Shown here: one piece after another, positions 7,989 through 63,349 of the stretch
Position numbering within the stretch: the stretch's first letter is position 1
How the letters are laid out: the number at the start of each line of letters is the position of its first letter
NCBI GenBank assembly: GCA_024281175.1
Contig: JAMJTW010000027.1
Location: 1 to 64,000, forward strand
DNA: 64,000 nt
Source: Candidatus Thiovulum imperiosus
GTDB taxonomy: Bacteria; Campylobacterota; Campylobacteria; Campylobacterales; Thiovulaceae
Reading direction: 5' to 3'
Program-made: the position numbers and the translations under genes
The notes under the pieces: model-generated
Database searches by the model: none
The model's input: the letters and a program-made list of their open reading frames with translations, nothing else
What the model was told of the DNA's origin: nothing

Positions 7989-10217
7989 ATGTTTAAAAAA
8001 ATTCTTCGCATAATGTTGTTTTCATTTGGAATTAGTTTTATACTTATTGCTATATATCTACTTTTTCCACAATATCACACCACTATTGAAAATAGAACAA
8101 AAGATATGTTCTTTCTTTTCAGAGACACCATAGAACCAAAGCAGAATATCTATATAGTAGATATAGATGAAAAGAGCTTGGCACACTTTGGACAATATCC
8201 TTGGGAACGAACTATATTGGCAGATATACTCAAAAAATTGACAAATGCTGGAGTCGGAATTATTGGACTTGATGTTATGTTTCCAGAAGAGGATAGAACT
8301 TCACCTCACAAATTTGCTGAAAAGTTTGGACTTTACGGTAGTTTTTCAAATTATGATGAGGTATTTGCAACAACCGTAGCTAATACGCCAACTATTCTTG
8401 GGTACACATTTGATTTAACAACAAAAGAGTTTGTTTATCGAGAAAACTCACCAATGATACCAGCATCATTTATTGAAGATGGTCTATCAGAACAGAATGA
8501 TTTTATGATAGTTGCAAATGATATTATTGTAAATATCCCAACAATTCAGGATAAGAGTTATAGTAGTGGTTTTTTCAACAACACTCCTGACCCATCTGGA
8601 ATTATTAGAACAGTACCTCTTGTTATAAAGTATGATGATGAGATATTTCCATCTCTCTCTTTTGAGATGTATAGAATTATTAAAGGTGCTGACGCTGTAT
8701 CAGTACATTATGGTTTAAACGGTATAGCTGGACTATCTTTAAAAGATATTTTTATTCCAACTGATAGATATGGTAGATTAACTTTAAACTTTAGAGGTCC
8801 AGGAAAAACTTTTGAATATATCTCTGCTTTAGATATCTACAATGAAGATTTTGATAAGGAGAAGCTGAAAGGTTCAATTGTTCTGGTTGGAACTTCAGCA
8901 GCAGGACTTCTCGATTTAAGAGCAACTCCATTTGACTCTATCTATCCTGGAGTTGAAATACACGCTACGGCAATTGACAATCTCCTTTCGGAAGATTTTC
9001 TTTCAAAACCGAGTTGGGTTGAAGGTCTTGATGTTGTTGTAATATTTGGACTTGTACTACTTCTCTCTATTCTATTCAACTTAGTTTCTGCAAACTTTGT
9101 TCTAATACTTCTTCCTTTTATCTTTGGAGGTACATTTTACGGACTCTACTATTACATATTTGAGAATGGAATTATGATAAATACTCTCTTCCCATTTATT
9201 GCAATTCTAACAACAACCATTGTTTTAATGATTGTAAATCTATTTTTTGAGCAGAACCAGAAAAAATTGATAAAAGGTAAGTTTGCAGCAAAGGTTTCTC
9301 CAGCAGTTATGGAAGACCTCATCAACTCAGAAGGTGATGTTATGGTTGGACATAGTAGAGAAATTACTGTAATGTTTTCCGATGTTCGAAATTTTACAAA
9401 CATTTCAGAAAGTATGCCTGATGCAAAAACTCTAATTGAGTTTCTAAATGAGTATATGGACCCGATGACTGAAATCATTATGAAGTATGAAGGTACAGTA
9501 GATAAATTTATTGGTGATGCAATCATGGCTTACTGGAATGCTCCAACAGATGTTGAAAATCATACTGATAAAGCAGTTGCGGCAACAATGGAACAGCTTC
9601 ACGCCTGTTTTGGAATTAATGAGAAAATTAAACAAGACCCTCGATTTACAAATACTGTTCGAATGGCAGCTGGAATGGGTAAAGAGCCTATTGAAATTGG
9701 TCTTGGACTCAATACAGGAGAAGCTGTTGTTGGTGAAATGGGTTCTTCTGGACGAAGCGATTACACTGCAATTGGAGACCCAATAAATCTTGGAGCAAGA
9801 CTTGAATCACTCTGTAAATACTATAACTCTCAATGTAATATCTCTAATTTTACAAAAGAGAGATTAGATGATGAAAAATACATCTTCAGATTTTTAGACC
9901 TTGTTACAGTAAAAGGAAAAAGTGAGCCTATCGAAATCTGGCAAATTCATGACTTTGATTCTGGTTTTGACGGTAGATATCTTTTTGAAGTATCAAAAGA
10001 GAGAATTTTAGAAGAGTTATATCTATACCACTCTGCAATTGATTTGTATAAAAATGCTCATTTCTCTGAAGCATTAGAGATATTTAAAGAGGTAAACTCT
10101 TGGGAAGATAAGACAAATAAAAATGTCTACGATATGTATATTGAAAGATGTGAACACTATATTGAAGAGCCACCAACAAACTTTGATGGTGTTTTCAAAC
10201 ATACAACAAAAGGGTAA
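7989..10217 (+). CDS. CHASE2-domain class III adenylate cyclase
   Basis: 742 residues. An N-terminal membrane helix (about 10-28) leads into an extracytoplasmic CHASE2 sensor (about 35-330, with IYIVDIDEKSLAHFGQYPWER), then three membrane helices (about 345-420). The cyclase domain follows. Metal-binding aspartates are Asp465 (FSDVRNFT) and Asp510 (IGDAIMAYW). Lys506 and Asp597 (YTAIGDPIN) form the adenine-recognising pair, and Asn600/Arg604 the transition-state pair. All catalytic positions are present, so it should make cAMP. The last ~80 residues look like a TPR-type helical tail. It starts 48 bases after tRNA-Ala and may depend partly on read-through from there. Confidence 0.92.
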   Translation: MFKKILRIMLFSFGISFILIAIYLLFPQYHTTIENRTKDMFFLFRDTIEPKQNIYIVDIDEKSLAHFGQYPWERTILADILKKLTNAGVGIIGLDVMFPEEDRTSPHKFAEKFGLYGSFSNYDEVFATTVANTPTILGYTFDLTTKEFVYRENSPMIPASFIEDGLSEQNDFMIVANDIIVNIPTIQDKSYSSGFFNNTPDPSGIIRTVPLVIKYDDEIFPSLSFEMYRIIKGADAVSVHYGLNGIAGLSLKDIFIPTDRYGRLTLNFRGPGKTFEYISALDIYNEDFDKEKLKGSIVLVGTSAAGLLDLRATPFDSIYPGVEIHATAIDNLLSEDFLSKPSWVEGLDVVVIFGLVLLLSILFNLVSANFVLILLPFIFGGTFYGLYYYIFENGIMINTLFPFIAILTTTIVLMIVNLFFEQNQKKLIKGKFAAKVSPAVMEDLINSEGDVMVGHSREITVMFSDVRNFTNISESMPDAKTLIEFLNEYMDPMTEIIMKYEGTVDKFIGDAIMAYWNAPTDVENHTDKAVAATMEQLHACFGINEKIKQDPRFTNTVRMAAGMGKEPIEIGLGLNTGEAVVGEMGSSGRSDYTAIGDPINLGARLESLCKYYNSQCNISNFTKERLDDEKYIFRFLDLVTVKGKSEPIEIWQIHDFDSGFDGRYLFEVSKERILEELYLYHSAIDLYKNAHFSEALEIFKEVNSWEDKTNKNVYDMYIERCEHYIEEPPTNFDGVFKHTTKG

Positions 10218-10244
10218 CTCCCCCTCTTTCTAAAGTATCTAGCT

Positions 10245-10270
10245 GAAGAGTCTATGATTTTAGACTCTTC
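10245..10270. terminator. strong hairpin between convergent genes
   Basis: GAAGAGTCTA, loop TGATTT, TAGACTCTTC: a perfect 10-bp stem between the cyclase (plus) and the 95-residue membrane gene (minus). No long T-run follows on either strand. A similar stem (GAAGAGTCT…AGACTCTTC) closes the trpD transcript at 30455. Confidence 0.6.
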
Positions 10271-10290
10271 ACTCAAAGAGGAAATCCTTA

Positions 10291-10578: not shown

Positions 10579-12503
10579 GAAATTCCCTTTTCAACTAACT
10601 CTACTACAGTTTCTACTGTGAAACCAAATTTCTTGAAAAGTTCTCCTGCAGGTGCTGAAGCTCCAAAACTCTCCATTCGGAGAACCTCATCAGCAAATCT
10701 ATACCACTCAAGACCACTTCCCATTTCTAAAGCAACTCGAAAAGAGCTTTTAGGAAAGAGGGAATTTAAATACTCTTTCTCTTGCTCCACAAGTAAATCG
10801 AAAGATGGAACTGAGACTACACGAGTAGAGATACCTTTCTCTTCTAAAACTTTAGAAGCCTCTATTCCTAAACTCACTTCACTTCCAGTTGCAATAAGTG
10901 TAACTTTTGGATTCTCTTTTTGAACAATTTGATATCCACCCTTTTCAAAGTTTATAGAATCTGAACCTAAATCTAAAACTGGAAGTTTTTGGCGACTTAG
11001 AACGAATCCACTTGGAGAATTTGTAAGTTTTAGAGCCTTTTTCCAAGCCAAGATATTTTCATTAGCATCAGCTGGTCGGAAAAGGTAGAAGTTTGGTAAA
11101 GCTCGAAATTGGGTGAGATGTTCAATAGGTTGGTGAGTTGGACCATCTTCTCCAACTCCGATAGAGTCGTGAGTCCAGATGAAAAAGTGTTGCAATTTTG
11201 AGAGACTTGCTACTCGAACAGCTGGTTTCACATAATCACTGAACACAAAGAAAGTGGAAGTGAAAGGTTTTAAGAGACCGTAAGCAGAGATTGCATTTCC
11301 AATTGCTCCCATTGAGAACTCTCGAATTCCAAAGTGGAAATTTTTCCCTTTTGGAAAGTCGCCCATTCCGATAAGTTCTGTCTTATTAGATGGTGCTAAA
11401 TCTGCACTACCACCAATAAAACTTGGAACTGCTTTTGCAATTGCATTTAAAATTTTTCCATTACTATCTCGAGTTGCTACACTACCTGAAAATTCTGGAT
11501 AGGAGATTTGGAACTCTTCACTTAAGAGTCTTTCTAATGCCTCATTCTGCTCTTGATAAGGTAACTGTTTCTGAAGTTGCTTCCACTCTTTTTCATAAAG
11601 CTCACCCATCTCAACGGCACTTCTAAACCGTGCAAGAACATCACTTGGGATATAGAACTTCTCATCTGGAAAACCAGCTTTCTCTTTTGAGAGTTTTATA
11701 TCTTCATCTCCAAGAGGTGAGCCGTGAGATTTATGACTTCCTTCAAATCCAACAGAACCTTTTCCAATTTTTGTATTTGCAATGATGAGGGTAGGTCTTT
11801 TAGAAACTTTTGCAAATTCTAAAGAGGCGTCTATTTCAGAAAAGTTATGTCCATCTATCTCCATAACTTCCCAACCTTGAGATTGAAATCGTCCTACAAT
11901 ATCTTCAGAAAGAGCGATAGAAGTATCTCCCTCAATTGTAATTTGGTTACTATCATAAATAAGAATTAGATTTTCAAGTTGGTGGTGTCCAGCAAGAGAA
12001 CACGCTTCATAACTAATTCCCTCTTGGAGGTCTCCATCACCGCAAAAGCAATATACCTTATGGTCGATGAGGTTTGCATTTTCTCGATTGAGTTGTTCTC
12101 CTAAATATCGACTTGCCATTGCAAAACCGACCGCATTTGCAACTCCTTGCCCAAGAGGTCCAGTTGTAATTTCAACTCCGTCAGTATGTCCAAATTCAGG
12201 GTGTCCAGCAGTTTTTGAGTCTAACTGCCTAAAGTTTTTTAAATCCTCAAGAGAGACATCATAACCCCAAAGATGTAGCAGTGAGTAGAGTAGTGAAGAT
12301 GCGTGTCCACCACTAAAAACAAGACGGTCTCGATTTAGCCATTTACTATTTTTTGGATTGTGTTTTAAATGTTTGCTTAAAATTACGGATATATCTGCCA
12401 ATCCCATTGGTGCTCCAGGGTGTCCGCTGTTTGCTCTTTGAACCATATCAGTAGCAAGAAACCTTAAGGTATCCGCCATTCTTTTTTCATCTCTATATTC
12501 CAA
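10575..12503 (-). CDS. tkt: transketolase
   Basis: 642 residues, the usual length. It moves two-carbon ketol units in the non-oxidative pentose phosphate pathway, with thiamine diphosphate. Visible blocks: NSGHPGAPMG near the N-terminus, GPLGQGVANAVGFA, the ThDP-binding GDGDLQEGISYEA, then TIEGDTS and the pyrimidine-domain signature HDSIGVGEDGPTHQPIEHL. Its stop overlaps the small membrane gene behind it. Confidence 0.97.
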   Translation of the reverse strand: MEYRDEKRMADTLRFLATDMVQRANSGHPGAPMGLADISVILSKHLKHNPKNSKWLNRDRLVFSGGHASSLLYSLLHLWGYDVSLEDLKNFRQLDSKTAGHPEFGHTDGVEITTGPLGQGVANAVGFAMASRYLGEQLNRENANLIDHKVYCFCGDGDLQEGISYEACSLAGHHQLENLILIYDSNQITIEGDTSIALSEDIVGRFQSQGWEVMEIDGHNFSEIDASLEFAKVSKRPTLIIANTKIGKGSVGFEGSHKSHGSPLGDEDIKLSKEKAGFPDEKFYIPSDVLARFRSAVEMGELYEKEWKQLQKQLPYQEQNEALERLLSEEFQISYPEFSGSVATRDSNGKILNAIAKAVPSFIGGSADLAPSNKTELIGMGDFPKGKNFHFGIREFSMGAIGNAISAYGLLKPFTSTFFVFSDYVKPAVRVASLSKLQHFFIWTHDSIGVGEDGPTHQPIEHLTQFRALPNFYLFRPADANENILAWKKALKLTNSPSGFVLSRQKLPVLDLGSDSINFEKGGYQIVQKENPKVTLIATGSEVSLGIEASKVLEEKGISTRVVSVPSFDLLVEQEKEYLNSLFPKSSFRVALEMGSGLEWYRFADEVLRMESFGASAPAGELFKKFGFTVETVVELVEKGIS

Positions 12504-12617: not shown

Positions 12618-13520
12618 ATGAAACACTTTCTCTCTTTTGATGAGTTCTCTAAAGAAGATATATTAGAGATAATTGAACTCTCGAAACAGATAAAACGGGA
12701 ATATTTAGAGGGTGTAAAAATTCCATATCTTGACAAAAAGATATTGGGAATGATATTTGAGAAGAGTAGTACAAGAACAAGAGTCTCTTTTGAGAGTGGG
12801 ATATTTCAACTGGGAGGAGATGGAATTTTTCTTTCAAGTCGAGATATTCAGATGGGTAGAGGTGAGCCTATTTCAGATACAGCAAAAGTAATAAGTTCTA
12901 TGGTAGACCTTATTATGGTTAGAACTTTTGAACATGAGAAGATAGAGGAGTTTGCCAGAAACTCAAAAACTCCTGTAATAAATGGACTTACAGATTTATG
13001 TCATCCAGTTCAAATTCTTGCTGATTATATGACAATTCTCGAAAGTGGAATTGAAAATCCAAAAATTGCTTATGTTGGTGATGGAAACAATATGGCAAAT
13101 AGTCTACTGCTCTTTTCAGCTAAAATGGGATTTGAAATAGGTATTGCTACTCCAAAAGGGTATGAACCAGATGCGGAAATTCTCTCTAAAAGTAGAGAAA
13201 TTTCAGAAAAGATATATATCTCTAACTCTCCTGATGAGGTAGTTTCTGGTGCTGATGTTATCATTACAGATACTTGGGTCTCTATGGGTGATGAAGCTGA
13301 AAAAGAGAAGAGAATTTCAGACTTTAATGGATATATTGTTGATGAAAAACTATTTTCCAAAGGTAGTGAAAATAGAATTTTTCTTCACTGTCTACCAGCA
13401 TATAGAGGATATGAAGTTTCTGAAGCTGTAATTGATGGTAGTAGAAGTAAAGTTTTTAAAGAGGCTGAAAATAGACTTCATGTTCAAAAAGGTCTTATGG
13501 TCTGGCTAATGACAAAATAG
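12618..13520 (+). CDS. argF: ornithine carbamoyltransferase
   Basis: 300 residues. It makes citrulline from ornithine and carbamoyl phosphate in arginine synthesis. The carbamoyl-phosphate site [12 protein letters not shown], the HPVQILAD block and the ornithine-loop motif [15 protein letters not shown] are all present. The start at [10 protein letters not shown] follows TAGGAGAATGTT. The last codons and the stop (ATGACAAAATAG) coincide with the terminal repeat of a MITE-like element, so the very C-terminus (MTK) seems to be supplied by the element. Confidence 0.96.
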
Positions 13521-13720: not shown

Positions 13721-13727
13721 TGCAGAA

Positions 13728-14575: not shown

Positions 14576-15760
14576 ATGAAAAAGCATGTCACCCTCTTAA
14601 AAAAGAATAGAGTTTTTAAAATTCTAATTTTTGTACAATTTTTAAATTTTATGGGAGGGTGGCTAACAACAACTGCTATTTTCACTCTTTTAGTTCAGCT
14701 TGGAGCTTCACCTTTCTGGATTGGTCTGATTGGTGCTGCTCACTTTCTTGCTGGAATTTTTCAAGCTCCTTTCACAGGAGTTATTACAGACAGGGCAAAT
14801 CCAAAAAAGCTATTTCTTACAATAATTTTAGTTGAAATTTTTAGTACAACTCTACTTCTTTTTACAGATAGACCTGAACTAATTCCAGCCATATTTATCT
14901 TGGTTCTAATTAGAATGGGTTCGGCAAGTCTCTACTTCAACTTGAAAATGGTTGTTTTTCCAAAAATTGTAGAGAGAGATGAACTTCAAACAGCAAATGA
15001 GATAAGTACAATTAGTTGGTCTTTTACATATATTTTGGGTAATGCTTTAGGTGGTTTAGGAGTAGCATTTTTTGGAGTAACTCCAGTAATAGTTGCCGAT
15101 ATAGGACTCTATCTTATCTCTTTTCTAATTATGGTGAATGTGAAATTGGTATTGGAGGGTTCTAAAAGTTCTGAAAAATTTCTGGAGATGTTTCTTTCAG
15201 GATTTTCATATCTTTTCAGAAACAGAAAGATTTTACATCTTATAGCACTTCACAGTTTTGTAGGTTTAGCAACTTATGAAGTTATTATAACTCTCGCTTC
15301 TCAACACTACTTTTATACAGCTGTTCCAGTTGCAATTGGCATCGGTTTTACCCATGCAGTTAGAGCTTTTGCAATATTCTTGGGACCTCTAATTTTTGGA
15401 AGATTTGAGATAGAGAAAGTTCTACCATACCTTTTTCTCTTTCAAGGAATTTCCCTGTTTCTCTGGAGTTTTACAATAGAGAACTTCTACACAAACCTCA
15501 TCGGCTCTTTTTTAAGTGGAGTTGTTATTGGCTCAATCTGGTCTGGAACATTTACTCTTCTCCAAAAAGCAACAGATGAGAGATATTATGGTCGAATTAT
15601 CGCTTATAACGATATGCTATTTCTAACTATCTCAGTTTTCACTTCTATCTTTTCTGGACAACTCTTCTCTCTTGGAATTTCTCTCGAAACAATGCTTATT
15701 GGAATTGGTACAATTTTTATTTCTGGATTCTTATACTCAAAATGGATTTTAAAGAATTGA
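14576..15760 (+). CDS. major facilitator superfamily transporter
   Basis: 394 residues with about 12 hydrophobic helices and the MFS loop 2-3 signature in GVITDRANPKKL. The fold and FxGxxTDR-type motif resemble the drug-efflux-like branch (enterobactin exporter/MFS_3 type). The substrate cannot be read from sequence. It begins directly after the purE stop and is probably translated from the same message. Confidence 0.85.
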   Translation: MKKHVTLLKKNRVFKILIFVQFLNFMGGWLTTTAIFTLLVQLGASPFWIGLIGAAHFLAGIFQAPFTGVITDRANPKKLFLTIILVEIFSTTLLLFTDRPELIPAIFILVLIRMGSASLYFNLKMVVFPKIVERDELQTANEISTISWSFTYILGNALGGLGVAFFGVTPVIVADIGLYLISFLIMVNVKLVLEGSKSSEKFLEMFLSGFSYLFRNRKILHLIALHSFVGLATYEVIITLASQHYFYTAVPVAIGIGFTHAVRAFAIFLGPLIFGRFEIEKVLPYLFLFQGISLFLWSFTIENFYTNLIGSFLSGVVIGSIWSGTFTLLQKATDERYYGRIIAYNDMLFLTISVFTSIFSGQLFSLGISLETMLIGIGTIFISGFLYSKWILKN

Positions 15761-16806: not shown

Positions 16807-18073
16807 ATATATTTTTAAATCTTTAGATAAAGTTGAACCAAGCAAGATGGTTAGAAGAATTTGGTTTTTTAGCTTTTCAACTATTCTAATTTTAGTTTCA
16901 ATGCTATTTTTACCTTGGCAACAGACAGTTAAGGGAAAAGGTTCTGTTGTGGCGTTTGACCCAACAGAGAGAGATTACTCTATTTTAGCTCCAGTAGATG
17001 GTTTTATTGAAAGATTTTATGTTCATGAAAATCAGTTTGTCAAAAAAGGAGAGCCTCTTTTTAAAATGGTAGATTTGGACAACAACTATCTACTAAAATT
17101 GGAAAAAGTTGAAAAGGATTTGAAAGAGCAAATTCAAAATAGAGTTGATGAGGTTTCAAATTTAAAACAGCAGATTTTAGAAACAGAGAACTATTTAAAA
17201 AATGGAACTTTTGTTTATGAGCAGAAAATTTTACAAATAGAAGAGAAAATAGCGAGTTTAAATTTTAAAAGAGTATCTCTTCAAAAAAGTTATGAGATAG
17301 AGAAGAACAATTTTGAAAGAGTTTTAAATCTATACAATGAGGGAATTGAGTCGAAACGACAGTATGAACTTGTTGAGAATAGATATATAAAAGCTGAAGC
17401 AGAATTGGAAAAAATTAAAATTGATATCTCTGTTGAGAAGAGGAATATAGCTATTTCAGAAAAAGAGAAAATGAAATTTCTGAACGATACTAAAGCTAAA
17501 TTACACTCTCTAAATAGCAATATTTTAAATGTTCAAAATGGGATAAAACAACTTACTGTTCAGCTTCAAAATCAACTTGTAACAATTGAGAGATATCGAA
17601 ATAGCGAGATGGTTGCTCCTAAAGACGGTTATGTAATTCGTCTCTTTAAAAATGACCAAAATCGATATATTAAAAAAGGTGAAAAGATACTTCACTTTGC
17701 ACCAGAAGTTACAAAAAGAGCCATCTTATTAGAAGTTTCTGATTTCAATATGCCTCTAATTAAAGAGGGTTTACCAACAAGAATTATGTTTCATGGTTGG
17801 CCTGCTCTTCAAATTAGTGGTTGGCCAAAAATTCAATTTGGCTCTTTTGGTGGTGTTGTAGAGAAAGTAGAACACATTTCTCATAAAGAAGGATTTTACT
17901 ACGCTCTTGTCACAGAAGAGTCTGACGAGTGGCCAGAAAAAGAGCAACTTAGAATGGGTAGCAGAGCTTCTGTTTGGGTTAGACTCTCTACTGTTCCAAT
18001 CTGGTATCAACTCTGGAGATTTATGAATGCTATGCCTCCAAAAATGGTAACACCTGATAGAGAGAAGTATTAA
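16799..18073 (+). CDS. HlyD-family periplasmic adaptor (membrane fusion protein)
   Basis: 424 residues. A short cytoplasmic N-terminus and a membrane helix (about 22-41) are followed by a biotinyl-lipoyl-like half (APVDGFIERFYVHENQFVKKGEPLF), a long coiled-coil hairpin (about 100-255), the second lipoyl half (APKDGYVIRLFKNDQNRYIKKGE) and a beta-barrel region. It should link an inner-membrane exporter to a TolC-type outer channel, which is not in this window. It overlaps the TMD-only ABC gene, so the two probably form one exporter. Confidence 0.88.
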   Translation: MDRYIFKSLDKVEPSKMVRRIWFFSFSTILILVSMLFLPWQQTVKGKGSVVAFDPTERDYSILAPVDGFIERFYVHENQFVKKGEPLFKMVDLDNNYLLKLEKVEKDLKEQIQNRVDEVSNLKQQILETENYLKNGTFVYEQKILQIEEKIASLNFKRVSLQKSYEIEKNNFERVLNLYNEGIESKRQYELVENRYIKAEAELEKIKIDISVEKRNIAISEKEKMKFLNDTKAKLHSLNSNILNVQNGIKQLTVQLQNQLVTIERYRNSEMVAPKDGYVIRLFKNDQNRYIKKGEKILHFAPEVTKRAILLEVSDFNMPLIKEGLPTRIMFHGWPALQISGWPKIQFGSFGGVVEKVEHISHKEGFYYALVTEESDEWPEKEQLRMGSRASVWVRLSTVPIWYQLWRFMNAMPPKMVTPDREKY

Positions 18074-18169: not shown

Positions 18170-19150
18170 ATGAATATAGTTAGTGGTATGAGACCAACAG
18201 GTAGATTGCATTTAGGGCATTACCTTGGAGTTTTGAAAAATTGGGTTGAGTTACAAAAGGGGAATAGCGGATATTTTTTTGTTGCTGATTGGCATGCACT
18301 CTCAACAAGTTATGAAGATAAATTACATCTCAAAAATCTATCTATTGGATTGGCAAAAGATTGGTTAAGTGCTGGAATAGATCCAGAAAAAGCTACTATT
18401 TTTGTACAGAGTTCTGTAAAAGCTCATGCTGAACTTTTTGTAATTTTGAATATGATTACACCATTGGGTTGGCTTGAGAGAAATCCAACTTACAAAGACC
18501 AGATAGAGCAGTTACAGAAAGATGTAAATAGTGGAGGTTTTTTAACTTATCCAGTTTTACAAACTGCTGATATTCTACTTTATGATGCTGATGCAGTTCC
18601 AATTGGAGAGGACCAGAAACCTCATCTCGAAATTAGCAGAGAGATAGTTAGAAGATTTCACCATCTTTTTGGAGAAGATATTTTTCATGAACCAAAAGCA
18701 CTACTTTCAGAGACTCCAAAACTTCTTGGTCTTGATGGTAGAAAGATGAGTAAAAGTTATGGAAATTCCATCTATCTTACAGACTCTACTGATGAGGTTT
18801 GGCAGAAATTACGAACTGCAAAAACTGACACAAATCGAGTTCGAAAAACAGATAAAGGAAATCCAGAAGTTTGTCTAGTTTTTGATTATCATAAAGAGTT
18901 CTCGAAACCTGAAACTGTTTCTGAAATAGATGCTGAGTGTCGAGCTGGAACTATTGGGTGTGTTCAGTGTAAAAAGAGCTGTTTAAGTTCTATGGAGAGT
19001 GTTCTTTCTCCAATGAGAGAGCGGAGAGAGAAATTTTCAGACTCTGCTGTTTTAGAGATTTTAGAAGCTGGAAATCATAAAGCAAACCAGATAGCGACCG
19101 CTAAGATGGAAAAGGTAAATAGAGTTGTCTTTGAGAGAGTGGAAGTTTAG
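18170..19150 (+). CDS. trpS: tryptophanyl-tRNA synthetase
   Basis: 326 residues, a class I aminoacyl-tRNA synthetase. The HIGH-type motif is in TGRLHLGHYLG, and KMSKS at about residue 192 (GRKMSKSYGN). The tail region with CVQCKKSC carries several cysteines. The length is normal. The next gene begins inside its last 26 bases. Confidence 0.96.
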   Translation: MNIVSGMRPTGRLHLGHYLGVLKNWVELQKGNSGYFFVADWHALSTSYEDKLHLKNLSIGLAKDWLSAGIDPEKATIFVQSSVKAHAELFVILNMITPLGWLERNPTYKDQIEQLQKDVNSGGFLTYPVLQTADILLYDADAVPIGEDQKPHLEISREIVRRFHHLFGEDIFHEPKALLSETPKLLGLDGRKMSKSYGNSIYLTDSTDEVWQKLRTAKTDTNRVRKTDKGNPEVCLVFDYHKEFSKPETVSEIDAECRAGTIGCVQCKKSCLSSMESVLSPMRERREKFSDSAVLEILEAGNHKANQIATAKMEKVNRVVFERVEV

Positions 19151-35454: not shown

Positions 35455-35516
35455 ACCTTAACTTGGGCGGAATGGAGAGGTCTCCTTTCCAAGATTTCTT
35501 GAGTAGCTCGAAATGA
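35455..35516 (+). repeat. decayed interspersed fragment related to 23365 and the MITE core
   Basis: TTAACTTGGGCGGAATGG, then TTTCCAAGATTTCTTGAGTAGCTCGAAATGAC. The CCAAGATTTCT and TCGAAATGAC strings are MITE core words. It lies between convergent panC and tpiA. Confidence 0.4.
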
Positions 35517-50522: not shown

Positions 50523-52590
50523 TCTCTTCTTTCTACTACTTTTCTATCTTCCTCTATTTGGGGAAGAACGACTCTATTTTCTTTCAGATAGAGTCTCCGT
50601 TTCAGATGAAAAAGTTACAGCTTATCGAGATGCAACTATCATATTCAAAAATAAATATATGAGAGCTGAACAGATACTCTACAATGAAGAGGCTGGTTTT
50701 ATTGAACTTTTTGGTGATATTACTCTTGTAGAAAATGGCATCTATTTTTTTGTTGGAGATTATGCAAAAGTATCCATAGATGGTAAAAAAGTTAATTTAG
50801 ACAATATGTTTTTGTATCACAAACCAAGACATATATGGATATACTCAAGTGAAGCCAACTCAACAAATAATGAGTACATTTTAGAAGATACTTTTCTATC
50901 GAGTTGTAGGAGTGAAGACCCTGATTGGGGATTTTATGTGAATAGTGGAGTGTTTGATAAAAATGAAGAACTTTTTGAACTCTATAATATCATTTTATAC
51001 GCTTCTGATATTCCAGTATTCTACATACCCTACTTAAATTTCTCAATTAAGAGAGAGCGAAAAAGTGGTCTTCTTGTTCCACAGTTTGGTTTATCTGTTG
51101 ATGAGGGTTTCTATATCTCTCAACCAATATATCTTGTTCCAAATGAGTGGTCAGATTTTGAAATATCTCCACAAGTTAGGACACAACGGGGGAATGGAGG
51201 ATATCTCAAGTACCGATTTACAGACTCTTTTTTCTCAAAAGGGGAGGTGACAGCTGGTTACTTTAGAGAGAAGAATGCCTATTTTGAACAAGAGAACTTG
51301 GCAAACCAAGAGCATTATGGAGTGGAGTTTTTATATAGAAGGAACTCTCTTTTAAGAGATTTTGATGATGGACTCTATGTAGATTTAAAATATCTGAATG
51401 ATATCGATTACATGAACTTAAAACCGAAATATAAGAATGAAAATCGAGAAACAACAAACCTCATCGACTCTAGGGTAAACTACTATATCTCTAAAGATGA
51501 ACACTCTCTCGGTTTATATAGTAGATACACAATAGATACATCAAAAGACTCAAATAGAGATACTCTGCAAATAACACCTCATATCCAATACCACTACGAT
51601 ATATCACCATTTTTAAATAATTTTCTCTACTCTTTTGATTACAACTTTAAAAATTTCAAAAGAGAAGTTGGAGCAACTGCAACTCAACATGAAGTTACAG
51701 TTCCAATTATATTTTACACATCATTTTATGATGACTATTGGAGATTTAGAGTTACTGAACACCTTTACGGTAGTCAGATAGACTTTTATCAAACAGATAA
51801 ATTTAGAGACTCTAGTAATTTATATATGAGATATTATCATCAGATAGAACTCTTTTCAGATTTATCTAAAAAATATGAAGGTAGTTTTCACTCAATAAAT
51901 TTTGGACTAAATTTGATATTGCCAGACCATGAACACAAAAAAGGTTTCTACTCTCCAGAAGAGGTAAACAATGAAGAGTGCATGGCTGGAAATCCTTGTG
52001 AATTTCAAACAGAGAATAGAGTAGAGAGTAAGTTGGAATTCAAATTTTCTCAATATCTTCACCAACTATCTGGTGATGAGGTTCTCTATCACAAAATCAT
52101 TCAACCTGTAAATATTGAAAATAGAGAAATTTTAGGTTTAGGACTTTTTGAAAATGAGTTTCGATGGCAATTTGACAAAAGTTTCTCTTTATATAACAAC
52201 TTTATTTATTCAGTAGATGATACTATCATAACGCAAGTTTCATCTATTGCTCAATATAAACTTGAAGATTACTCTCTTGATGTTTCCCATTTTGCAAAGA
52301 ATGATAAATTTGCTGATGATTTAGAGTTTGTCTCTTCTGAGTTTTCAACAGTTTTAAATGATAAATATTCATTCTCTGGACACTACTCCTACGATTTAAT
52401 CGACCAATCAACAAGAAGTTGGGGAGTTGGTTATGAGATGAAAAAAAGATGTTGGAATTATAAGGTAGACTACAAATATGAATATCTACCCAATATGACA
52501 AAGAGTGGAACTTCAACACAAGAGAATAGTACATTCTATTTTCTAATAGAGCTTTACCCTTTGGGTGGATTTGAATATGGAGTAAAATAG
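50509..52590 (+). CDS. lptD: LPS-assembly outer membrane protein LptD
   Basis: 693 residues. Inserts LPS into the outer leaflet. Signal peptide (about 1-18), an OstA/LptA-like periplasmic part (about 19-190) with Cys133 in LSSCRSEDPDW, then the barrel with the family stretch VFYIPYLNFSIKRERKSGLLVPQFGL. More cysteines are in EECMAGNPCE and RCWNYK, so inter-domain disulfides are plausible. Followed directly by mlaD. Confidence 0.92.
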   Translation: MQKNSLFFLLLFYLPLFGEERLYFLSDRVSVSDEKVTAYRDATIIFKNKYMRAEQILYNEEAGFIELFGDITLVENGIYFFVGDYAKVSIDGKKVNLDNMFLYHKPRHIWIYSSEANSTNNEYILEDTFLSSCRSEDPDWGFYVNSGVFDKNEELFELYNIILYASDIPVFYIPYLNFSIKRERKSGLLVPQFGLSVDEGFYISQPIYLVPNEWSDFEISPQVRTQRGNGGYLKYRFTDSFFSKGEVTAGYFREKNAYFEQENLANQEHYGVEFLYRRNSLLRDFDDGLYVDLKYLNDIDYMNLKPKYKNENRETTNLIDSRVNYYISKDEHSLGLYSRYTIDTSKDSNRDTLQITPHIQYHYDISPFLNNFLYSFDYNFKNFKREVGATATQHEVTVPIIFYTSFYDDYWRFRVTEHLYGSQIDFYQTDKFRDSSNLYMRYYHQIELFSDLSKKYEGSFHSINFGLNLILPDHEHKKGFYSPEEVNNEECMAGNPCEFQTENRVESKLEFKFSQYLHQLSGDEVLYHKIIQPVNIENREILGLGLFENEFRWQFDKSFSLYNNFIYSVDDTIITQVSSIAQYKLEDYSLDVSHFAKNDKFADDLEFVSSEFSTVLNDKYSFSGHYSYDLIDQSTRSWGVGYEMKKRCWNYKVDYKYEYLPNMTKSGTSTQENSTFYFLIELYPLGGFEYGVK

Positions 52591-53964
52591 ATGACAACAG
52601 AAGCGAAAGTCGGTTTTTTTATAATTTTTGGATTAGTAATGCTTTTCTTACTTACAACTCAAGTAAATAATTTTAGAAATGTAAAATCTAATGGCTATAC
52701 ACTAGAAGTATATATTGATGACTCAACTGGTTTATCAAAAAATACAAAAGTTAAAATGAATGGAATTAATGTTGGCTGGATAAAAAATTTAAAGATAGCT
52801 GAAGATTTTGTAGTTTTAGAGATTTTTATAAAAGATGGGTATAAAGTTCCAAGAGACTCTGAAGTTTTACTTGTTCAGGAAAATCTACTTGGTAGTAGAA
52901 TTGTTCTTATTCGAAGAGGCGATAGCAGAGAGTATCTCTCTGAAGGAGATTTCATAAAGAAATATAAGGTTTACGCCTCTTTTGAAGAGACAAGTGATAG
53001 CATATATCAAACTTCTGAACAGTTTGGGAAACTTGCAAGAGAGTTACGAGAAACTATGAATATGGAGAGAAGAGCAGATGTTCAAAATGCAATTATCGAT
53101 TTAAGTGAAATTCTCCTTGAAGTGAAAGAGATTTTAAAAGAGAACAGAGGAGATTTCAGAGCTACTATGTACAATGTACGGTCAGCAACAGATAGATTGC
53201 CTTATGTTGTCTCTACTCTTGAAAAAACTTTAAAGAGATATGATACTGTTGGAGTAACTATAAATAGAGAAGTTGAAGATGTTGCAATGTATGCCAAATC
53301 TCTAATTCAAGAACTTAACAATACAGTTGGAGATAATGGTGATAGTCTTGGAGATACTCTTGAGTCAGTAGACTCATTTTTCACAGCAGGAGAAGAGTCT
53401 TTAGAAAAGTTAGACAAAATTCTGGCTTCTATGACAGAGTCAGAACTTCAATTTGCAATGAGAGTTGAGAGTCATGGTAGAGATGATATGGTTAAAACTT
53501 ATGTAGATATAAATTATTTACCAAATCCAAACACATACTATCTCTTTTCAATGGTATCTTCACCAAATTTTGAAGAGAAAAGAGAAGATGGAACTTTTGA
53601 AAACACTCTACACACTGAAGATGAGACATACTTCTCAATTCAGTATGGAAAGAGATATGGAGATTGGCTCTTTAGAGCTGGACTTATCGAAAGTAGAGGT
53701 GGTATTGGAGTAGATTATTTTTCTATGGAAGATGACTTAAAAGTATCTCTGGAAGTTTCAGATTTTAGTGCCATAAATGATATTCGAAATGAGTACGGAA
53801 ATGTCAAATCAACTGTGCGATATAGAATTTATGACCATATTGACTTTTTTGCTGGAGGTGACAACCTCATCAACGAAGATAGAAGACTATTTTTTGGAGT
53901 TGGTTTCTATTTCATAGATAATGACTTGAAAACTCTTGTTGGAATGGCAGGAAGTGCTTTATAG
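52591..53964 (+). CDS. mlaD: MlaD/MCE-domain lipid transport protein
   Basis: 457 residues. One N-terminal membrane helix (about 7-25), then the MCE domain (about 36-115: DDSTGLSKNTKVKMNGINVGWIKNL, with LLGSRIVLI), then coiled coil, and a long C-terminal extension that looks like beta-strands (RYGDWLFRAGLIESRGGIGVDY, ending …GMAGSAL). It belongs to an inter-membrane phospholipid pathway. The partner permease and ATPase are not adjacent. The beta-rich tail is longer than in enterobacterial MlaD. Confidence 0.87.
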   Translation: MTTEAKVGFFIIFGLVMLFLLTTQVNNFRNVKSNGYTLEVYIDDSTGLSKNTKVKMNGINVGWIKNLKIAEDFVVLEIFIKDGYKVPRDSEVLLVQENLLGSRIVLIRRGDSREYLSEGDFIKKYKVYASFEETSDSIYQTSEQFGKLARELRETMNMERRADVQNAIIDLSEILLEVKEILKENRGDFRATMYNVRSATDRLPYVVSTLEKTLKRYDTVGVTINREVEDVAMYAKSLIQELNNTVGDNGDSLGDTLESVDSFFTAGEESLEKLDKILASMTESELQFAMRVESHGRDDMVKTYVDINYLPNPNTYYLFSMVSSPNFEEKREDGTFENTLHTEDETYFSIQYGKRYGDWLFRAGLIESRGGIGVDYFSMEDDLKVSLEVSDFSAINDIRNEYGNVKSTVRYRIYDHIDFFAGGDNLINEDRRLFFGVGFYFIDNDLKTLVGMAGSAL

Positions 53965-54747: not shown

Positions 54748-57190
54748 AACCAAACTATTACAACTTGAACTTAAATGTAAACAGTATCAGAAGAGTAGAG
54801 GTGGTCTCTTCTCGAAATTCAAAGACTTAAAATTTCCAAAAATATCTTTTCCTAAAAGTTTTCCAAAATTTTCGAAGAAAATTGTAATTGCTATTCTAAT
54901 TCTCATTCTTATTACAATTTCATTTTTCTTTGGAGAAAAAGCTATAAATCGGTTTGCAGATAGCAACATCTCTTTACAATTTGATTTCAATTTTTCAAGT
55001 TGGCTTCCAGACATGAATTTCTCTTTTTTTGAAGATACAAACTTTTCTGCTAAAGATATTTTAGAGCATATAGAGACAAATAGTTCAGTTTGGAAAGATT
55101 TACTTCCTGAAGATAATGGCTCTTTTGAGTATGAAATCAACAATACTCTAATTGAGAAAAAAGAGATAACAGAAGTTGATAGCAGTGATGAGATGATAGA
55201 TTTTAAGAACTATATTCTGCTTGACTACCGAGAAGTTCGAGAAAATGAAATTGAAGATTTAGTTCATATTGAGATGGAAGAGGAGATAGTTCTTATCGGA
55301 GAACCTGATGATAGCTATCATATATTTGAAGAGGAAATTAAAAAAGAGGTTGTAAAAAAGGTAGAAGTTTATAAAGAAGAGTTCGTATTTGAACCAACTC
55401 CACCAACTGAAATAGTCTATGTTGCTGAAGTTCAACTAGTTGGTGAAGAGTTTGTTCTTACTAATATCGAAAAAGAGCAACCAAAAATAGAGTGGGACGA
55501 TATTTACATCTTTGATGAGAACATCTCTCCGCAAAATATGAAGTCAAGTAAAGATGATGATTTTGATGTTATAGTAGATAGAAGAGATTTAGAATTAAAA
55601 GAGGTAGAGAAAAAAAATCGAGAAAATTTAGATGGTATTGAAAATATGGCAATCATTGTTAATGATATGGAAGCTGAAAATTCAATTCCTCTAAACCCAA
55701 TAGATGAGGTTATGGAGATAGAACCTATCGCCTCTTTAAAACCTCAAAAAATAGAAGAAGAGATAGCTTCTCAAAACGAAGCTCCACCATTACCAGATAG
55801 CTGGGGTGATTTTCGACTTTTTCCAACTGTTCCTGAACCAACTAAAATTGAGGAAGATACTGTTACTTTAAAAGAGGAACTTCCAAAACAGGTCGAAAAA
55901 CCTCAAGTTTTCACAGAAATTCCAAAACCAAAACTTGAAGAAGAGAAAGTTGAAGTAGAAGAGTTGCCACTACCAAAAGATTGGGAAAACTTCAAACTAT
56001 TTCCAAGTATAGATGCACAAGTAGAAGTTGTAGAAGAAAAGGAAGTTGTTGCAAAAGAGGAGCTTCCAAAAGATTGGGAAAACTTCAAACTATTTCCAAG
56101 TATAGATGCACAAGTAGAAGTTGTAGAAGAAAAAGAAGTTGTTGTAAAAGAGGAACTTCCGAAAGATTGGGAAAACTTCAAACTCTTTCCAAGTGTAGAT
56201 GCACAAGTAGAAGTTGTAGAAGAAAAAGAAGTTGTTGTAAAAGAGGAATTACCAAAAGATTGGGAAAACTTCAAACTCTTTCCTGATAGAGAAGCTGAAA
56301 TTAGAGAAGATGAAAAAGAGGTTGTTGCAAAAGAGGAGCTACCGAAAGATTGGGAAAACTTCAAACTCTTTCCTGATAGGGAAGCTGAAATAGTTGAAAG
56401 AGCAAAAAAGGAGATAGAGATAGTCCCATCTAGTGAAAAGTGGGACGGATATCAACTTTTTGTAGATATAAATAAGAGCGTTAAAATTGAAGAAGTTGTT
56501 GAAGAGAAAGAAGAGGCTCTTGAAAAGGAGGAGCTTCCAAAAGATTGGGAAAATTTCAAGCTCTTTTCTGATAGAAATAGAAGTACTGACATAGTTGAGG
56601 CAGGAGAGAAAGAAGTTGAGATAATTCCTCTATCTGAAGCCGTAGAGCTACCAAATTTTGAGACTGTTCAGCCAGAAATTGTAGAAAAAGAGATACATGA
56701 AATTAGTGAAGTGGAAGAAGATTTACCTCTACCTCAAGATTGGGAAAACTTTGAACTTTTTCCAGAGACAAACAGAAGTATAAATATAGTTGAAGTTGCT
56801 GAAGAAGAGGAGATAGAAGAGAGTATGCCAGAAGAGACAGTAGAACCATCTTTAGAAATTCCTTCGATATCTTTTCCAAATTTAGAAGATAGCGACACCT
56901 CCTTTGAAGATAATGAACTTGAAGAATATGTTGATGAGGTTTCAGAAATTCCAGAAAAGAGATTTGAAATTCCTGAGATTCCAGAAAAGAAATTTGAAGT
57001 TCCAAAAACTCCTGAGATTCCAGAAAAGAAATTTGAAGTTCCAGAAACTCCTGAGATTCCAGAAAAGAAACCTGAAGTTTCTGAACAGAAGAGAACAGCA
57101 CCTTCAAATGACATTCCTCCAGCAGAAGAGATACCAATTCGAGAATATAATACAATTTTTATTTCACCAACTGTTGTGTTTCCAAAGTAA
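54740..57190 (+). CDS. repeat-rich single-pass membrane protein
   Basis: About 816 residues. A basic cytoplasmic start (…KFPKISFPKSFPKFSKK) and one membrane helix (about 49-67) precede a very acidic periplasmic region. The motif LP-x-DWENF-x-LFP occurs at least seven times, mostly in 31-residue units (PKDWENFKLFPSIDAQVEVVEEKEVV-type). Near the end, EIPEKKFEVP units repeat. Such acidic, proline-containing repeats suggest an extended arm through the periplasm. The ATPase before it may be its partner, as in GspA/GspB pairs, but this is inference. ATG 54740 is chosen; a TTG one codon earlier is possible. Confidence 0.75.
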   Translation: MDKTKLLQLELKCKQYQKSRGGLFSKFKDLKFPKISFPKSFPKFSKKIVIAILILILITISFFFGEKAINRFADSNISLQFDFNFSSWLPDMNFSFFEDTNFSAKDILEHIETNSSVWKDLLPEDNGSFEYEINNTLIEKKEITEVDSSDEMIDFKNYILLDYREVRENEIEDLVHIEMEEEIVLIGEPDDSYHIFEEEIKKEVVKKVEVYKEEFVFEPTPPTEIVYVAEVQLVGEEFVLTNIEKEQPKIEWDDIYIFDENISPQNMKSSKDDDFDVIVDRRDLELKEVEKKNRENLDGIENMAIIVNDMEAENSIPLNPIDEVMEIEPIASLKPQKIEEEIASQNEAPPLPDSWGDFRLFPTVPEPTKIEEDTVTLKEELPKQVEKPQVFTEIPKPKLEEEKVEVEELPLPKDWENFKLFPSIDAQVEVVEEKEVVAKEELPKDWENFKLFPSIDAQVEVVEEKEVVVKEELPKDWENFKLFPSVDAQVEVVEEKEVVVKEELPKDWENFKLFPDREAEIREDEKEVVAKEELPKDWENFKLFPDREAEIVERAKKEIEIVPSSEKWDGYQLFVDINKSVKIEEVVEEKEEALEKEELPKDWENFKLFSDRNRSTDIVEAGEKEVEIIPLSEAVELPNFETVQPEIVEKEIHEISEVEEDLPLPQDWENFELFPETNRSINIVEVAEEEEIEESMPEETVEPSLEIPSISFPNLEDSDTSFEDNELEEYVDEVSEIPEKRFEIPEIPEKKFEVPKTPEIPEKKFEVPETPEIPEKKPEVSEQKRTAPSNDIPPAEEIPIREYNTIFISPTVVFPK
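55971..56375 (+). repeat. 93-bp coding tandem repeats
   Basis: The anchor TTGGGAAAACTTCAAACT starts at 55981, 56074, 56167, 56260 and 56350: spacing 93, 93, 93 and 90 bases. More diverged copies follow at 56545 and 56740, each 195 bases on. The unit is a multiple of three, so copy number can change without breaking the frame. Confidence 0.92.
56948..57085 (+). repeat. 39-bp coding repeats near the C-terminus
   Basis: ATTCCAGAAAAGA begins at 56948, 56978, 57017 and 57056 (spacing 30, 39, 39). It encodes EIPEKKFEVPKT-type units. Confidence 0.88.
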
Positions 57191-59130: not shown

Positions 59131-59160
59131 TTTCTCCAAAAAATTCTTTCAAGGTTTTCA

Positions 59161-60504
59161 ATGTATGAAGATACAATTTCAGCAATAGCTACACCTCATG
59201 GTGTTGGTGCTATCTCTATCATTAGAGTAAGTGGAGATAAGGCTTTAGAAGTTGGTGCAAAAGTTTGTAACTTGAAACAGAACAGTTTTAAACCGAGATA
59301 TGCTCACTTAAAAACTCTATATGATAAACGAGGGAAAGAGATTGATAAAGCAATTGTCATCTACTTTCCAGCACCAAACTCTTTTACAGGTGAAGATATT
59401 TTTGAGTTTCAAATTCATGGTGGAGTTGTTCTTTCTCAAATGGTTTTGGAGACTACTCTATATTTTGGTTCTCGATTAGCAAGAGGTGGAGAATTTTCCA
59501 AAAGAGCATTTTTAAATGGAAAGGTGGATTTGAGTGAAGCTGAAGCTATTGGAAAGATAATTGAAGCTAAAAGTGAAGAAGCAGTACATCAACTATCAAA
59601 ACAGCTTCATGGAGAACTTAGAACTCTTACAGATAGAATTCGTTCAGAACTACTAAATATTTTAGCTCACTCCGAAGTTACCATAGATTATGCAGAAGAG
59701 GATTTACCATCAGATATTGAAGAGACAATAGAAGAAAAATTGGAAGATTTAGAAGCTGAACTTCAAAATCTTTTAAAAAGTAGTAAAACTCGAAATAGGA
59801 TTTTTGAGGGATTTAAGATTTCAATAATTGGAAGACCAAATGTTGGAAAGAGTTCATTACTAAATTCACTACTAAATTATGAGAGAGCAATTGTTAGTAA
59901 CATAGCTGGAACAACGAGAGATAGTGTTGAAGAGTATCTTACTGTTGGAACTCATCTTGTTAAAATTGTTGATACAGCTGGAATTAGAGAGAGTGGCGAT
60001 GAGGTTGAGAAAATTGGAATTGAGCGAAGTTTAAAAGCGATTTCTGAAAGTGACATAGTTTTAGCACTTTTTGACTCTTCTGAAAAGTTACAAGTAGAGG
60101 ATTTCCAAATTCTGAAAACTTTAGAGAAAGAGGATAGAGAAATTTTGGTAGTTTTCTCAAAAAGTGATTTGAAAAGAGAAATTGAAGAGATTTCAGGTTT
60201 CGATTCTGTTTCTGTTTCAAAAAAAGAGACTTTTAAACTTCTTGAAAAATTAGAAGAGATTCTAAATTCTCAAAACATCTCATCAGAAGGTGGTGTAATT
60301 CTCTCATCTTTAAAACAGATAGAAGAGGTTGAAAATGGAGTTTCAAATATTTTGGAAGCAAAAGAGTTTCTGAAAAGTGGTGAGTTAGAACTATTTTCAC
60401 TTCATATTGAAAGTGCGATACAAAACATATCTTCTATTTCAAAACCTTATGAATATTCTGAGATGCTAGATGAGATGTTTGGAAGTTTCTGTTTAGGAAA
60501 ATAG
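59161..60504 (+). CDS. mnmE: tRNA modification GTPase MnmE (TrmE)
   Basis: 447 residues. N-terminal folate-binding part (TISAIATPHGVGAISIIRVSG), helical middle, G domain with GRPNVGKSSLLNSLL, the TTR switch, DTAGIRES, and the C-terminal CLGK with the catalytic Cys. Partner of MnmG, encoded at 2475. Confidence 0.96.
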   Translation: MYEDTISAIATPHGVGAISIIRVSGDKALEVGAKVCNLKQNSFKPRYAHLKTLYDKRGKEIDKAIVIYFPAPNSFTGEDIFEFQIHGGVVLSQMVLETTLYFGSRLARGGEFSKRAFLNGKVDLSEAEAIGKIIEAKSEEAVHQLSKQLHGELRTLTDRIRSELLNILAHSEVTIDYAEEDLPSDIEETIEEKLEDLEAELQNLLKSSKTRNRIFEGFKISIIGRPNVGKSSLLNSLLNYERAIVSNIAGTTRDSVEEYLTVGTHLVKIVDTAGIRESGDEVEKIGIERSLKAISESDIVLALFDSSEKLQVEDFQILKTLEKEDREILVVFSKSDLKREIEEISGFDSVSVSKKETFKLLEKLEEILNSQNISSEGGVILSSLKQIEEVENGVSNILEAKEFLKSGELELFSLHIESAIQNISSISKPYEYSEMLDEMFGSFCLGK

Positions 60505-60526: not shown

Positions 60527-60542
60527 TTGTCACGCCTTTTTT

Positions 60543-60717: not shown

Positions 60718-61102
60718 CCTTTTTTATAGATAGAGTATTTCCATCTTTTGAAAGAACTATGACCTCATCACCATCTGAGAAATTATCTTCACTTCTATAA
60801 GACCAGAGAGTTCCTTCAAAAGAGACCTTATCACCTTGAATAGTTCCAAAGCTACTCTTCTCTTTCTCTTCAAGTTTCTCTTTTCTTTTTGCAAAATAGA
60901 AGAAACCAATTAGAGTCACTATGGAAACTATTGTAATTTGGTGAAACAGAGTTGGAAACTCAAAAAAGTAGGAGAGAACTCCCACTCCTACTGTTGCTAC
61001 TCCAAACCAGAGAGCAAACATAGTTCCTGAAACTATCTCAAGTCCAATCAAAATTAGACCAATTGAGATAAGCCAAAGAGGTGAAATTGCTGAAAAATCC
61101 AC
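60710..61102 (-). CDS. NfeD-like membrane protein
   Basis: 130 residues: about three helices (9-30, 32-50 and 55-72) and a C-terminal OB-fold-like part (GDKVSFEGTLWSYRSEDNFSDGDEVIVLSKDGNTLSIKK), the short NfeD1b type that pairs with stomatins. Its stop codon lies inside the MITE terminal repeat. It begins one base into the stop of the stomatin gene. Confidence 0.88.
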   Translation of the reverse strand: MDFSAISPLWLISIGLILIGLEIVSGTMFALWFGVATVGVGVLSYFFEFPTLFHQITIVSIVTLIGFFYFAKRKEKLEEKEKSSFGTIQGDKVSFEGTLWSYRSEDNFSDGDEVIVLSKDGNTLSIKKGE

Positions 61103-61995: not shown

Positions 61996-62050
61996 TTAGA
62001 AACTCCTAAAACCTAAGGTGGAGAATTTCTCTACCACTCTTTTTGAAAAA

Positions 62051-63349
62051 TTATATCTTTTTAAAAAATTTATAGAAAAAATCTTTGATAATTCTTATAT
62101 TTGCTCTACTAATTGCTAGAGAACCTTTTCTGATTTCGCTATTTGCTGGTACAGTTGTTCCAGCTCCTATCATAACATCATCTTCTACTGTTACAGGTGC
62201 TATCAGTTGTGAGTCACTACCAACAAAAACATTCTTTCCAATTCGAGTCTTATATTTATTTTTACCATCATAGTTTGCTGTAATTACTCCAGCACCAATA
62301 TTTGTTCCATCGCAAATCTCAGCATCACCAAGATATGCAAGATGTCCAGCTTTTACACCATGTAGAGAGGATTTTTTAACTTCAACAAAGTTACCTATTT
62401 TGCTTCCAGTGATGTAAGATTTTGGACGAATATGAGCCATAACACCAATAGTCGAGTCTCTAATGATAGAGTCTTCAATTACACTTCCAGCTTTGATATG
62501 AGAATTCTCAATAGTTGTGTTTCCATAGATAGAGACATTCTGTTCAATTTCACACTCTCCGATAAATTCAACACTATCTTCGATATAGACTGTTTCTGGA
62601 AGATGTATTGTAGTTCCATCAACCATCACTCTCTCTTTTACTCTTTTAAGGTATTTCTCTTCAGCTTGAGAAAGTTGCAGTTTAGAGTTTACACCCATAA
62701 AACTCTCTTCAGAAACATCTATGGAGCGGACAGCTTCTCCAGTTTCTACGGCAATTTGAACTATATCTGTAAGGTAATACTCTTTTTGTGCATTCTCATT
62801 TGAGAGTTTTGATATTGCAAAATTTAGAAATTCTGAATTTACTAAATATACTCCAGCATTTACAGATTTTGTTTTTCTCTCTATTTCAGAACAATCTTTC
62901 TCTTCGACTATTTTTAGAACCTCATCACCATCTACAATCACTCTACCATAACCAGTTGGATTTTCAAGTAGAATAGAACTCATTACAACTGAAGCATCGA
63001 TTTCTAAAAATTTTAGAAGTTCTTCACCCTGAATTAGAGGCATATCTCCATTTAGGATTAGAACCTTTTCAGATTTTGATACATACTCTTTTAAAGCTCC
63101 TCCAGTTCCAGGAAATTTTTCAGTATCTTGCTTTAAAAAAGAGATATTTTTAAACTCTTTTTCAACCTCTTTCTGAACCTTCTCAGCTTGATGTCCAATA
63201 ACAACAGTTATATCATTGGAAATCTTTTTTGCTTCTCTTATGATATGAAAGAGAATTGGCTTTCCAGCCATTTTATGAAGAACTTTTGCCTTTTTGGACT
63301 TCATTCGAGTCCCTTTTCCAGCTGAAAGAATTACAACAGAAACTGACAT
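62051..63349 (-). CDS. glmU: bifunctional GlmU uridylyltransferase/acetyltransferase
   Basis: 432 residues. Makes UDP-GlcNAc for wall and LPS. LSAGKGTRMKSKKAKVLHKMAGKP binds nucleotide; LNGDMPLI follows; the C-terminal half is a hexapeptide beta-helix with FVEVKKSSLHGVKAGHLAYLGD and GAGVITANYDGKNKYKT. Slightly short, as usual in this phylum. Directly follows gmk. Confidence 0.95.
   Translation of the reverse strand: MSVSVVILSAGKGTRMKSKKAKVLHKMAGKPILFHIIREAKKISNDITVVIGHQAEKVQKEVEKEFKNISFLKQDTEKFPGTGGALKEYVSKSEKVLILNGDMPLIQGEELLKFLEIDASVVMSSILLENPTGYGRVIVDGDEVLKIVEEKDCSEIERKTKSVNAGVYLVNSEFLNFAISKLSNENAQKEYYLTDIVQIAVETGEAVRSIDVSEESFMGVNSKLQLSQAEEKYLKRVKERVMVDGTTIHLPETVYIEDSVEFIGECEIEQNVSIYGNTTIENSHIKAGSVIEDSIIRDSTIGVMAHIRPKSYITGSKIGNFVEVKKSSLHGVKAGHLAYLGDAEICDGTNIGAGVITANYDGKNKYKTRIGKNVFVGSDSQLIAPVTVEDDVMIGAGTTVPANSEIRKGSLAISRANIRIIKDFFYKFFKKI

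Follow-up and report, generated by a model that had tools for sequence, protein, structure and literature searches.

An octamer enriched across the Thiovulum family, spaced by orientation, as a candidate self-recognition word of natural transformation

The stretch of DNA analysed here, the first 64,000 nucleotides (forward strand) of contig JAMJTW010000027.1 of Candidatus Thiovulum imperiosus (GCA_024281175.1; hereafter the window), is strewn with copies of one octamer, GATGAGGT, and this raises the question of what maintains so many copies of a single word. An earlier note, made from the letters of the window, had counted at least 40 copies (21 plus, 19 minus), called the word hugely over-represented, read its occurrence in several frames as selection on DNA, and favoured an uptake signal on the grounds that strand polarity was lacking; as checks it named a count of all 8-mers, spacing, an extended consensus, presence in related genomes and competence pilus genes. 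We find 42 exact copies in the window (22 plus, 20 minus), one of them, the leftmost at 6750, outside the range covered by that note, versus 1.68 expected from dinucleotide shuffles (maximum in 100 shuffles, 6). The genome as a whole holds 1,565 copies (782 forward, 783 reverse) in 2,199,814 bases on 36 contigs, or about 1 per 1.4 kb, and the reversed word, used as a control, occurs 204 times (103 and 101). Further statistics come from sampled stretches, namely 829 kb from this genome, 820 kb from G004 (a relative in one contig), 500 kb from G001 (a congener) and lesser amounts from others; those on spacing rest on the first three. GATGAGGT ranks first among all 8-mers in the 829-kb sample (564 copies), and against a background model built with the word masked its excess is 26-fold here, 35-fold in G004 and 43-fold in G001. 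The enrichment itself is not in doubt, and it is stronger than had been stated.

Codon or peptide usage alone, in the form of a preference for Asp-Glu-Val or Leu-Ile, might explain such a word, and about half of the copies do lie in the Asp-Glu-Val (DEV) frame. However, a shuffle of synonymous codons within 740 coding stretches gave 126 ± 9 copies where 543 are observed. The DEV frame accounts for 297 of these (117 under the shuffle), the three antisense frames together for 225 (8.7) and sense frame 2 for 21 (0.6); the remaining, sixth frame contains TGA and is hence impossible, so that an excess is found in all five permitted frames. The codon null is likewise rejected in the relatives of this genome. 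No tripeptide of the sampled proteome is more over-represented than Asp-Glu-Val (335 versus 101 expected), and GATGAGGT encodes 89% of its occurrences (33% expected), 53% of those of Thr-Ser-Ser (0.8% expected) and 40% of those of Leu-Ile preceded by Asn, Asp, Tyr or His (about 0.35% expected). The flanks are constrained in addition to the octamer: in this genome T is preferred at -4 and +1, G at -3, and T or C at -1, where G is almost never found, which gives an extended motif of roughly T-G-n-Y-GATGAGGT-T; in G001 the preference is for C on both sides of the octamer (-1 and +1), with G at +2. These constraints are alike across different reading frames, and the extended motif does not differ between sense and antisense copies. 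Since the excess over a codon-preserving null extends to all permitted frames, selection acts on the DNA word, as had been proposed; counts were not near the codon null, nor was the enrichment limited to the DEV frame, the two outcomes that the earlier note had named as contrary. Codon or peptide bias is refuted as the cause by the shuffle counts and by flanks constrained independently of frame, and its probability is negligible. The copies in the window are listed here by coordinates, strand and frame, with the encoded peptide in one-letter code.

6750 to 6757, plus strand, antisense in a gene (NLI)
8355 to 8362, plus strand, sense (DEV)
9316 to 9323, minus strand, antisense (DLI)
10684 to 10691, minus strand, sense (DEV)
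12066 to 12073, plus strand, antisense (NLI)
13233 to 13240, plus strand, sense (DEV)
15495 to 15502, minus strand, antisense (NLI)
17147 to 17154, plus strand, sense (DEV)
18619 to 18626, minus strand, antisense frame 2 (KPHL)
18791 to 18798, plus strand, sense (DEV)
20453 to 20460, plus strand, sense (DEV)
20726 to 20733, minus strand, antisense (TSS)
22085 to 22092, plus strand, spans the start codon at 22086 (gene edge)
22353 to 22360, minus strand, antisense (TSS)
23125 to 23132, plus strand, sense (DEV)
23498 to 23505, minus strand, sense (DEV)
23903 to 23910, plus strand, antisense (TSS)
26144 to 26151, minus strand, antisense (NLI)
27109 to 27116, plus strand, sense (DEV)
28377 to 28384, minus strand, antisense (NLI)
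29940 to 29947, minus strand, antisense frame 2 (IPHR)
30103 to 30110, plus strand, sense (DEV)
31403 to 31410, minus strand, sense (DEV)
32194 to 32201, minus strand, sense (DEV)
33739 to 33746, plus strand, sense (DEV)
34927 to 34934, plus strand, sense (DEV)
35529 to 35536, minus strand, sense (DEV)
37334 to 37341, plus strand, antisense (TSS)
40238 to 40245, minus strand, sense (DEV)
40921 to 40928, plus strand, antisense (HLI)
43567 to 43574, minus strand, antisense (NLI)
43650 to 43657, plus strand, sense (DEV)
47021 to 47028, plus strand, sense (DEV)
47693 to 47700, minus strand, antisense (TSS)
51458 to 51465, minus strand, antisense (NLI)
52075 to 52082, plus strand, sense (DEV)
53864 to 53871, minus strand, antisense (NLI)
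55703 to 55710, plus strand, sense (DEV)
56933 to 56940, plus strand, sense (DEV)
59998 to 60005, plus strand, sense (DEV)
60762 to 60769, minus strand, sense (DEV)
62919 to 62926, minus strand, sense (DEV)

If the DNA word is what is selected, in which organisms is it selected? Among 299 genomes of the order, all five of the family (f1; G000 to G004) are enriched, with 733 to 1,565 copies each; the other 294 have at most 503, most of them near the reversed-word control. A word common to the whole order is therefore ruled out, the enrichment being confined to one family. The next highest counts, 451 and 503, belong to G114 and G126 (family f19, genus g22; 54-56% G+C), where copies are about four times the reversed-word control, lie mostly in the antisense Leu-Ile frame and are partly explained by codons; they may reflect codon context or a weak relative of the signal. 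In three genomes of another family (G012, G031 and G059; f9, genus g12) GATGAGGT is rare and almost strictly strand-polar, with a switch of orientation about half-way along the chromosome. Among named genomes, the best matches to a window protein are in a Campylobacterales metagenome-assembled genome and Candidatus Thiovulum karukerense (50-54% identity), short contigs of which also bear the word. Across the family the octamer core is constant and the flanking letters vary by species; the recognised motif would so be about 12 to 14 letters long, an invariant octamer with a species dialect. When orthologous coding DNA was compared, 9 of 66 word sites of this genome were kept in G004, and arbitrary octamers were identical in 8% of cases; positions thus turn over, whereas the density of copies is kept up. 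G004 has many intergenic inverted pairs able to form hairpins and this genome almost none; inverted intergenic pairs have been reported from every genome with dialects of the DNA uptake sequence (DUS) (PMC3630211). Two other repeats were noticed in these genomes: a 10-mer, GTCATTTCGA (47 copies in 429 kb sampled from this genome versus 0.5 expected; for example in the window near 35510, minus strand), which is probably a dispersed intergenic repeat element, and, on contigs C1 to C5 of G002 (L036 to L040), an array resembling clustered regularly interspaced short palindromic repeats, with a unit of about 25 bases that contains CACAAAGTGG and AACATATTCC and is repeated about 16 times.

The arrangement of the copies along the DNA is informative in a second way. 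Replication polarity is absent, as judged from the even division between strands genome-wide and from the lack of strand drift along the single contig of G004. Replication-polar signals are ruled out by this balance, including FtsK orienting polar sequences (KOPS), with their strict polarity towards the terminus. The earlier note was right about the balance and overlooked that the orientation of neighbours alternates locally. Relative to expectation, pairs of copies in the same orientation are reduced to 0.21-0.34 at distances under 500 bp, to 0.49 between 0.5 and 1 kb and to 0.77 between 1 and 1.5 kb, and reach about 1 at greater distances; pairs in opposite orientation stay near 1 at all distances. 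Same-orientation copies exclude each other and opposite ones do not, and neighbours therefore alternate, in a ratio of 348:175 here (p 3e-14), 286:141 in G004 (2e-12) and 239:107 in G001 (1e-12). Pairs closer than 1 kb number 69 same to 206 opposite in this genome, 23 to 61 in the first 420 kb of G004 and 11 to 33 in the first 100 kb of G001. For 17 other abundant octamers of this genome, taken as controls, same-orientation ratios are at least 1.1 and alternation is below 0.50, which is if anything the reverse. Close hairpins were rejected as the cause of the alternation, given that the exclusion extends to distances of about 1-1.5 kb and that pairs in opposite orientation are about as frequent as expected. 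The exclusion is strong within a gene (0.30 of expectation) and between adjacent genes of the same direction (0.39), and within one gene a sense and an antisense copy co-occur above chance.

We favour the explanation that GATGAGGT, within a longer and looser motif, is a word by which members of the Thiovulum family recognise self DNA in natural transformation, and put its probability at roughly 0.55. We prefer an uptake-type word because of the magnitude of the enrichment, its independence of frame, the absence of polarity, the limits at the family, the dialects, the turnover and the hairpin pairs of G004. The word is also missing from a Mu-like prophage fragment at L030:6480-14200 (G000 C34; portal and F-like proteins, an adenine methylase), with 0 copies versus 5.2 expected. 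Competence genes are present as well: ComEC, DprA, T2SSE-type ATPases and type IV pilin-like proteins were found in all five family genomes. Type IV pili have been reported in all strains of a Thiovulum genome study (PMC9938260), in the text of which we found no mention of competence or transformation. Under this explanation, free DNA that carries the word would be favoured at some step between binding and recombination, and word-bearing alleles would then spread through the population, so that the word accumulates. As the exclusion over about 1 kb holds for copies in the same orientation and exempts opposite ones, a single strand is probably what is read at the decisive step, for example the strand that passes through ComEC and on to DprA or RecA. 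Each strand of a roughly kilobase piece would then need its own copy; a second copy on the same strand would add little, and one on the opposite strand would go uncounted. Such spacing suggests that the word is recognised while single-stranded, whether in transformation or in a Chi-like process. From these patterns in DNA we infer that transformation is involved, that one strand is read and that the word is driven through the population.

A number of observations weigh against an uptake-type word. Pooled, the 24 one-mismatch neighbours of GATGAGGT occur at 0.97 of expectation in this genome, 1.09 in G004 and 0.85 in G001, which is background level, whereas one-mismatch forms of DUS and of the uptake signal sequence (USS) are enriched (PMC1939737); strict all-or-none recognition of GATGAGGT would account for its lack of enriched near-misses. 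Same-orientation exclusion is absent or weak in the known words that we sampled: 565 distinct sites of genuine Neisseria DUS gave 159 same and 189 opposite pairs below 1 kb (62 and 90 below 500 bp, where a weak effect is possible), and Pasteurellaceae USS gave 48 and 40. These controls are samples from contigs that bear prophages and were picked for a single close inverted pair; that pair is itself uncounted, since pairs below 40 bp were excluded. Neither the lack of near-miss enrichment nor the orientation-resolved spacing is a mark of an uptake-type word, and on these two counts the preference of the earlier note is not borne out; selection on the DNA word, the lack of polarity, conservation across the family, dialects, competence genes and the inverted pairs of G004 agree with it, so that it is supported in part. 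Also on the negative side, ComEC occurs in sister families that lack the word, no strongly basic ComP-like pilin turned up in the part of this genome that was sampled, and the word is sparser between genes than within them here, the opposite of G004. Restriction-modification genes, usually mobile, hold 35 copies versus 26 expected and are thus not depleted, and the Mu-like prophage fragment is a single example of depletion. Finally, the few pairs that span genes of opposite direction number 31 on the same strand (33.1 expected) and 43 on opposite strands (34.9 expected), and all pairs with a switch of direction 30 and 47; these counts are too small to tell an exclusion tied to the DNA strand from one tied to transcriptional direction.

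These last figures bear on a different kind of explanation, in which the word has some other orientation-specific role inside the cell, as a transcript-level element, in strand marking for repair or in chromosome organisation, unrelated to transformation. An exclusion that is strong within and between co-directional genes and seemingly weaker across genes of opposite direction would fit such a role, as would the co-occurrence of one sense and one antisense copy per gene. An RNA signal, however, would need to act in both complementary forms, given that both carry the same extended motif, and the fast positional turnover and the lack of replication polarity argue against roles of this kind too; we give them only a slim chance.

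The same spacing is also predicted by a Chi-like recombination hotspot, at which a helicase-nuclease of the AddAB or RecBCD type, travelling from a DNA end, would read the word on one strand and switch to RecA loading. Two-ended break repair would need a copy every kilobase or so in each orientation, and redundancy specific to orientation is what such an enzyme predicts. Many Chi sequences are C-free and G-rich on one strand, as is GATGAGGT. An AddB-like PDDEXK_1 protein is present in all five family genomes, but AddB-like proteins are found in sister families without the word as well. Most known Chi sequences are co-oriented with replication, a polarity that is absent here, and species-specific flank preferences are not expected of a Chi site. 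E. coli Chi (GCTGGTGG) shares with GATGAGGT the octamer length, a G-rich strand and an orientation-specific logic; unlike GATGAGGT, it showed no same-orientation exclusion in our sample (12 same and 9 opposite pairs below 1 kb; 102 sites, 400 kb), and it is mildly enriched, at about 6.7-fold by base composition (PMC1939737). On balance we consider a Chi-like hotspot unlikely.

An all-or-none octamer without near-miss enrichment resembles the specificity of a methyltransferase, and a methylation-dependent uptake or epigenetic mark, in which methylation of one strand of the octamer would label DNA as self, must be weighed for that reason. It has a precedent in the same phylum: in Campylobacter jejuni, self DNA is discriminated at uptake by CtsM-methylated sites, a short motif that is common by chance and recognised when methylated (PMC8468864). 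Genes for methyltransferases and restriction enzymes, Type ISP and MmeI types among them, are moreover unusually numerous in the Thiovulum family. Among these many candidates, however, no cognate methyltransferase could be traced as an intact orthologue across all five family genomes; for Type ISP, the gene of G004 is broken and none was found in G003, and N6_N4 methylases were not found in G002. An extended flank preference is unexpected of a methylase, and restriction sites are normally avoided, not enriched. We regard a methylated mark as quite unlikely. Eco57I-domain matches number 6-12 in each of the five family genomes (for example L020:2507-5449, L121:15288-19022 and L124:12207-14960) and 1 in several sister families, and the restriction-modification genes of the Thiovulum family that hold them carry the word at normal density; at L124:10341-14960 (G000 C34) a type II/IV secretion (pilus) ATPase with an MshEN domain is followed immediately downstream by a restriction-modification gene of the MmeI type.

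Returning to a transformation word, how would it stand among known systems? With Neisseriaceae DUS it shares an abundant, short, non-palindromic word with a conserved core and species dialects, no replication polarity, inverted intergenic pairs (many in G004, almost none in this genome) and the presence of competence machinery; it is unrelated in sequence, lacks near-miss enrichment and an identified ComP-like receptor, and shows strong exclusion where sampled DUS largely do not. Like Pasteurellaceae USS, which are spaced at about 1 kb (PMC7811141), it occurs about once per kb or so, mostly within genes and on balanced strands, but it differs from USS in its unenriched one-mismatch forms and in its spacing by orientation. 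Cyanobacterial HIP1 matches its very strong, octamer-scale enrichment across the genome, but HIP1 is palindromic and GATGAGGT is not. A tentative proposal, which we hold as possible though not probable, is that GATGAGGT represents a new class of per-strand word, with copies spaced a kilobase or more apart on each strand and read on single-stranded DNA during transformation or recombination. Such a class would differ from DUS and USS, which are orientation-blind at uptake, and from Chi, which is weakly enriched and replication-polar.

Strongly enriched uptake words are, to our knowledge, known only from Neisseriaceae and Pasteurellaceae. The earlier note knew of none in Campylobacterota, and we too found none in the open-access literature searched, subscription papers lying outside that search. 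If GATGAGGT is an uptake word, it would be a third, independent case, in Campylobacterota, and would indicate that self-recognition of this kind evolves repeatedly. It would also show the extent to which such a word rewrites a proteome, here by adding some 230 Asp-Glu-Val tripeptides in the 829-kb sample. The spacing by orientation can be measured, and it raises the question of the step, in transformation or in recombination, at which the word is read, a matter left unsettled by the distributions of DUS and USS, and with five species using different flank dialects the recognising protein may be sought by covariation. For Thiovulum, a genus of giant-celled sulfur bacteria, the word looks like a tag for the uptake or recombination of DNA from kin.

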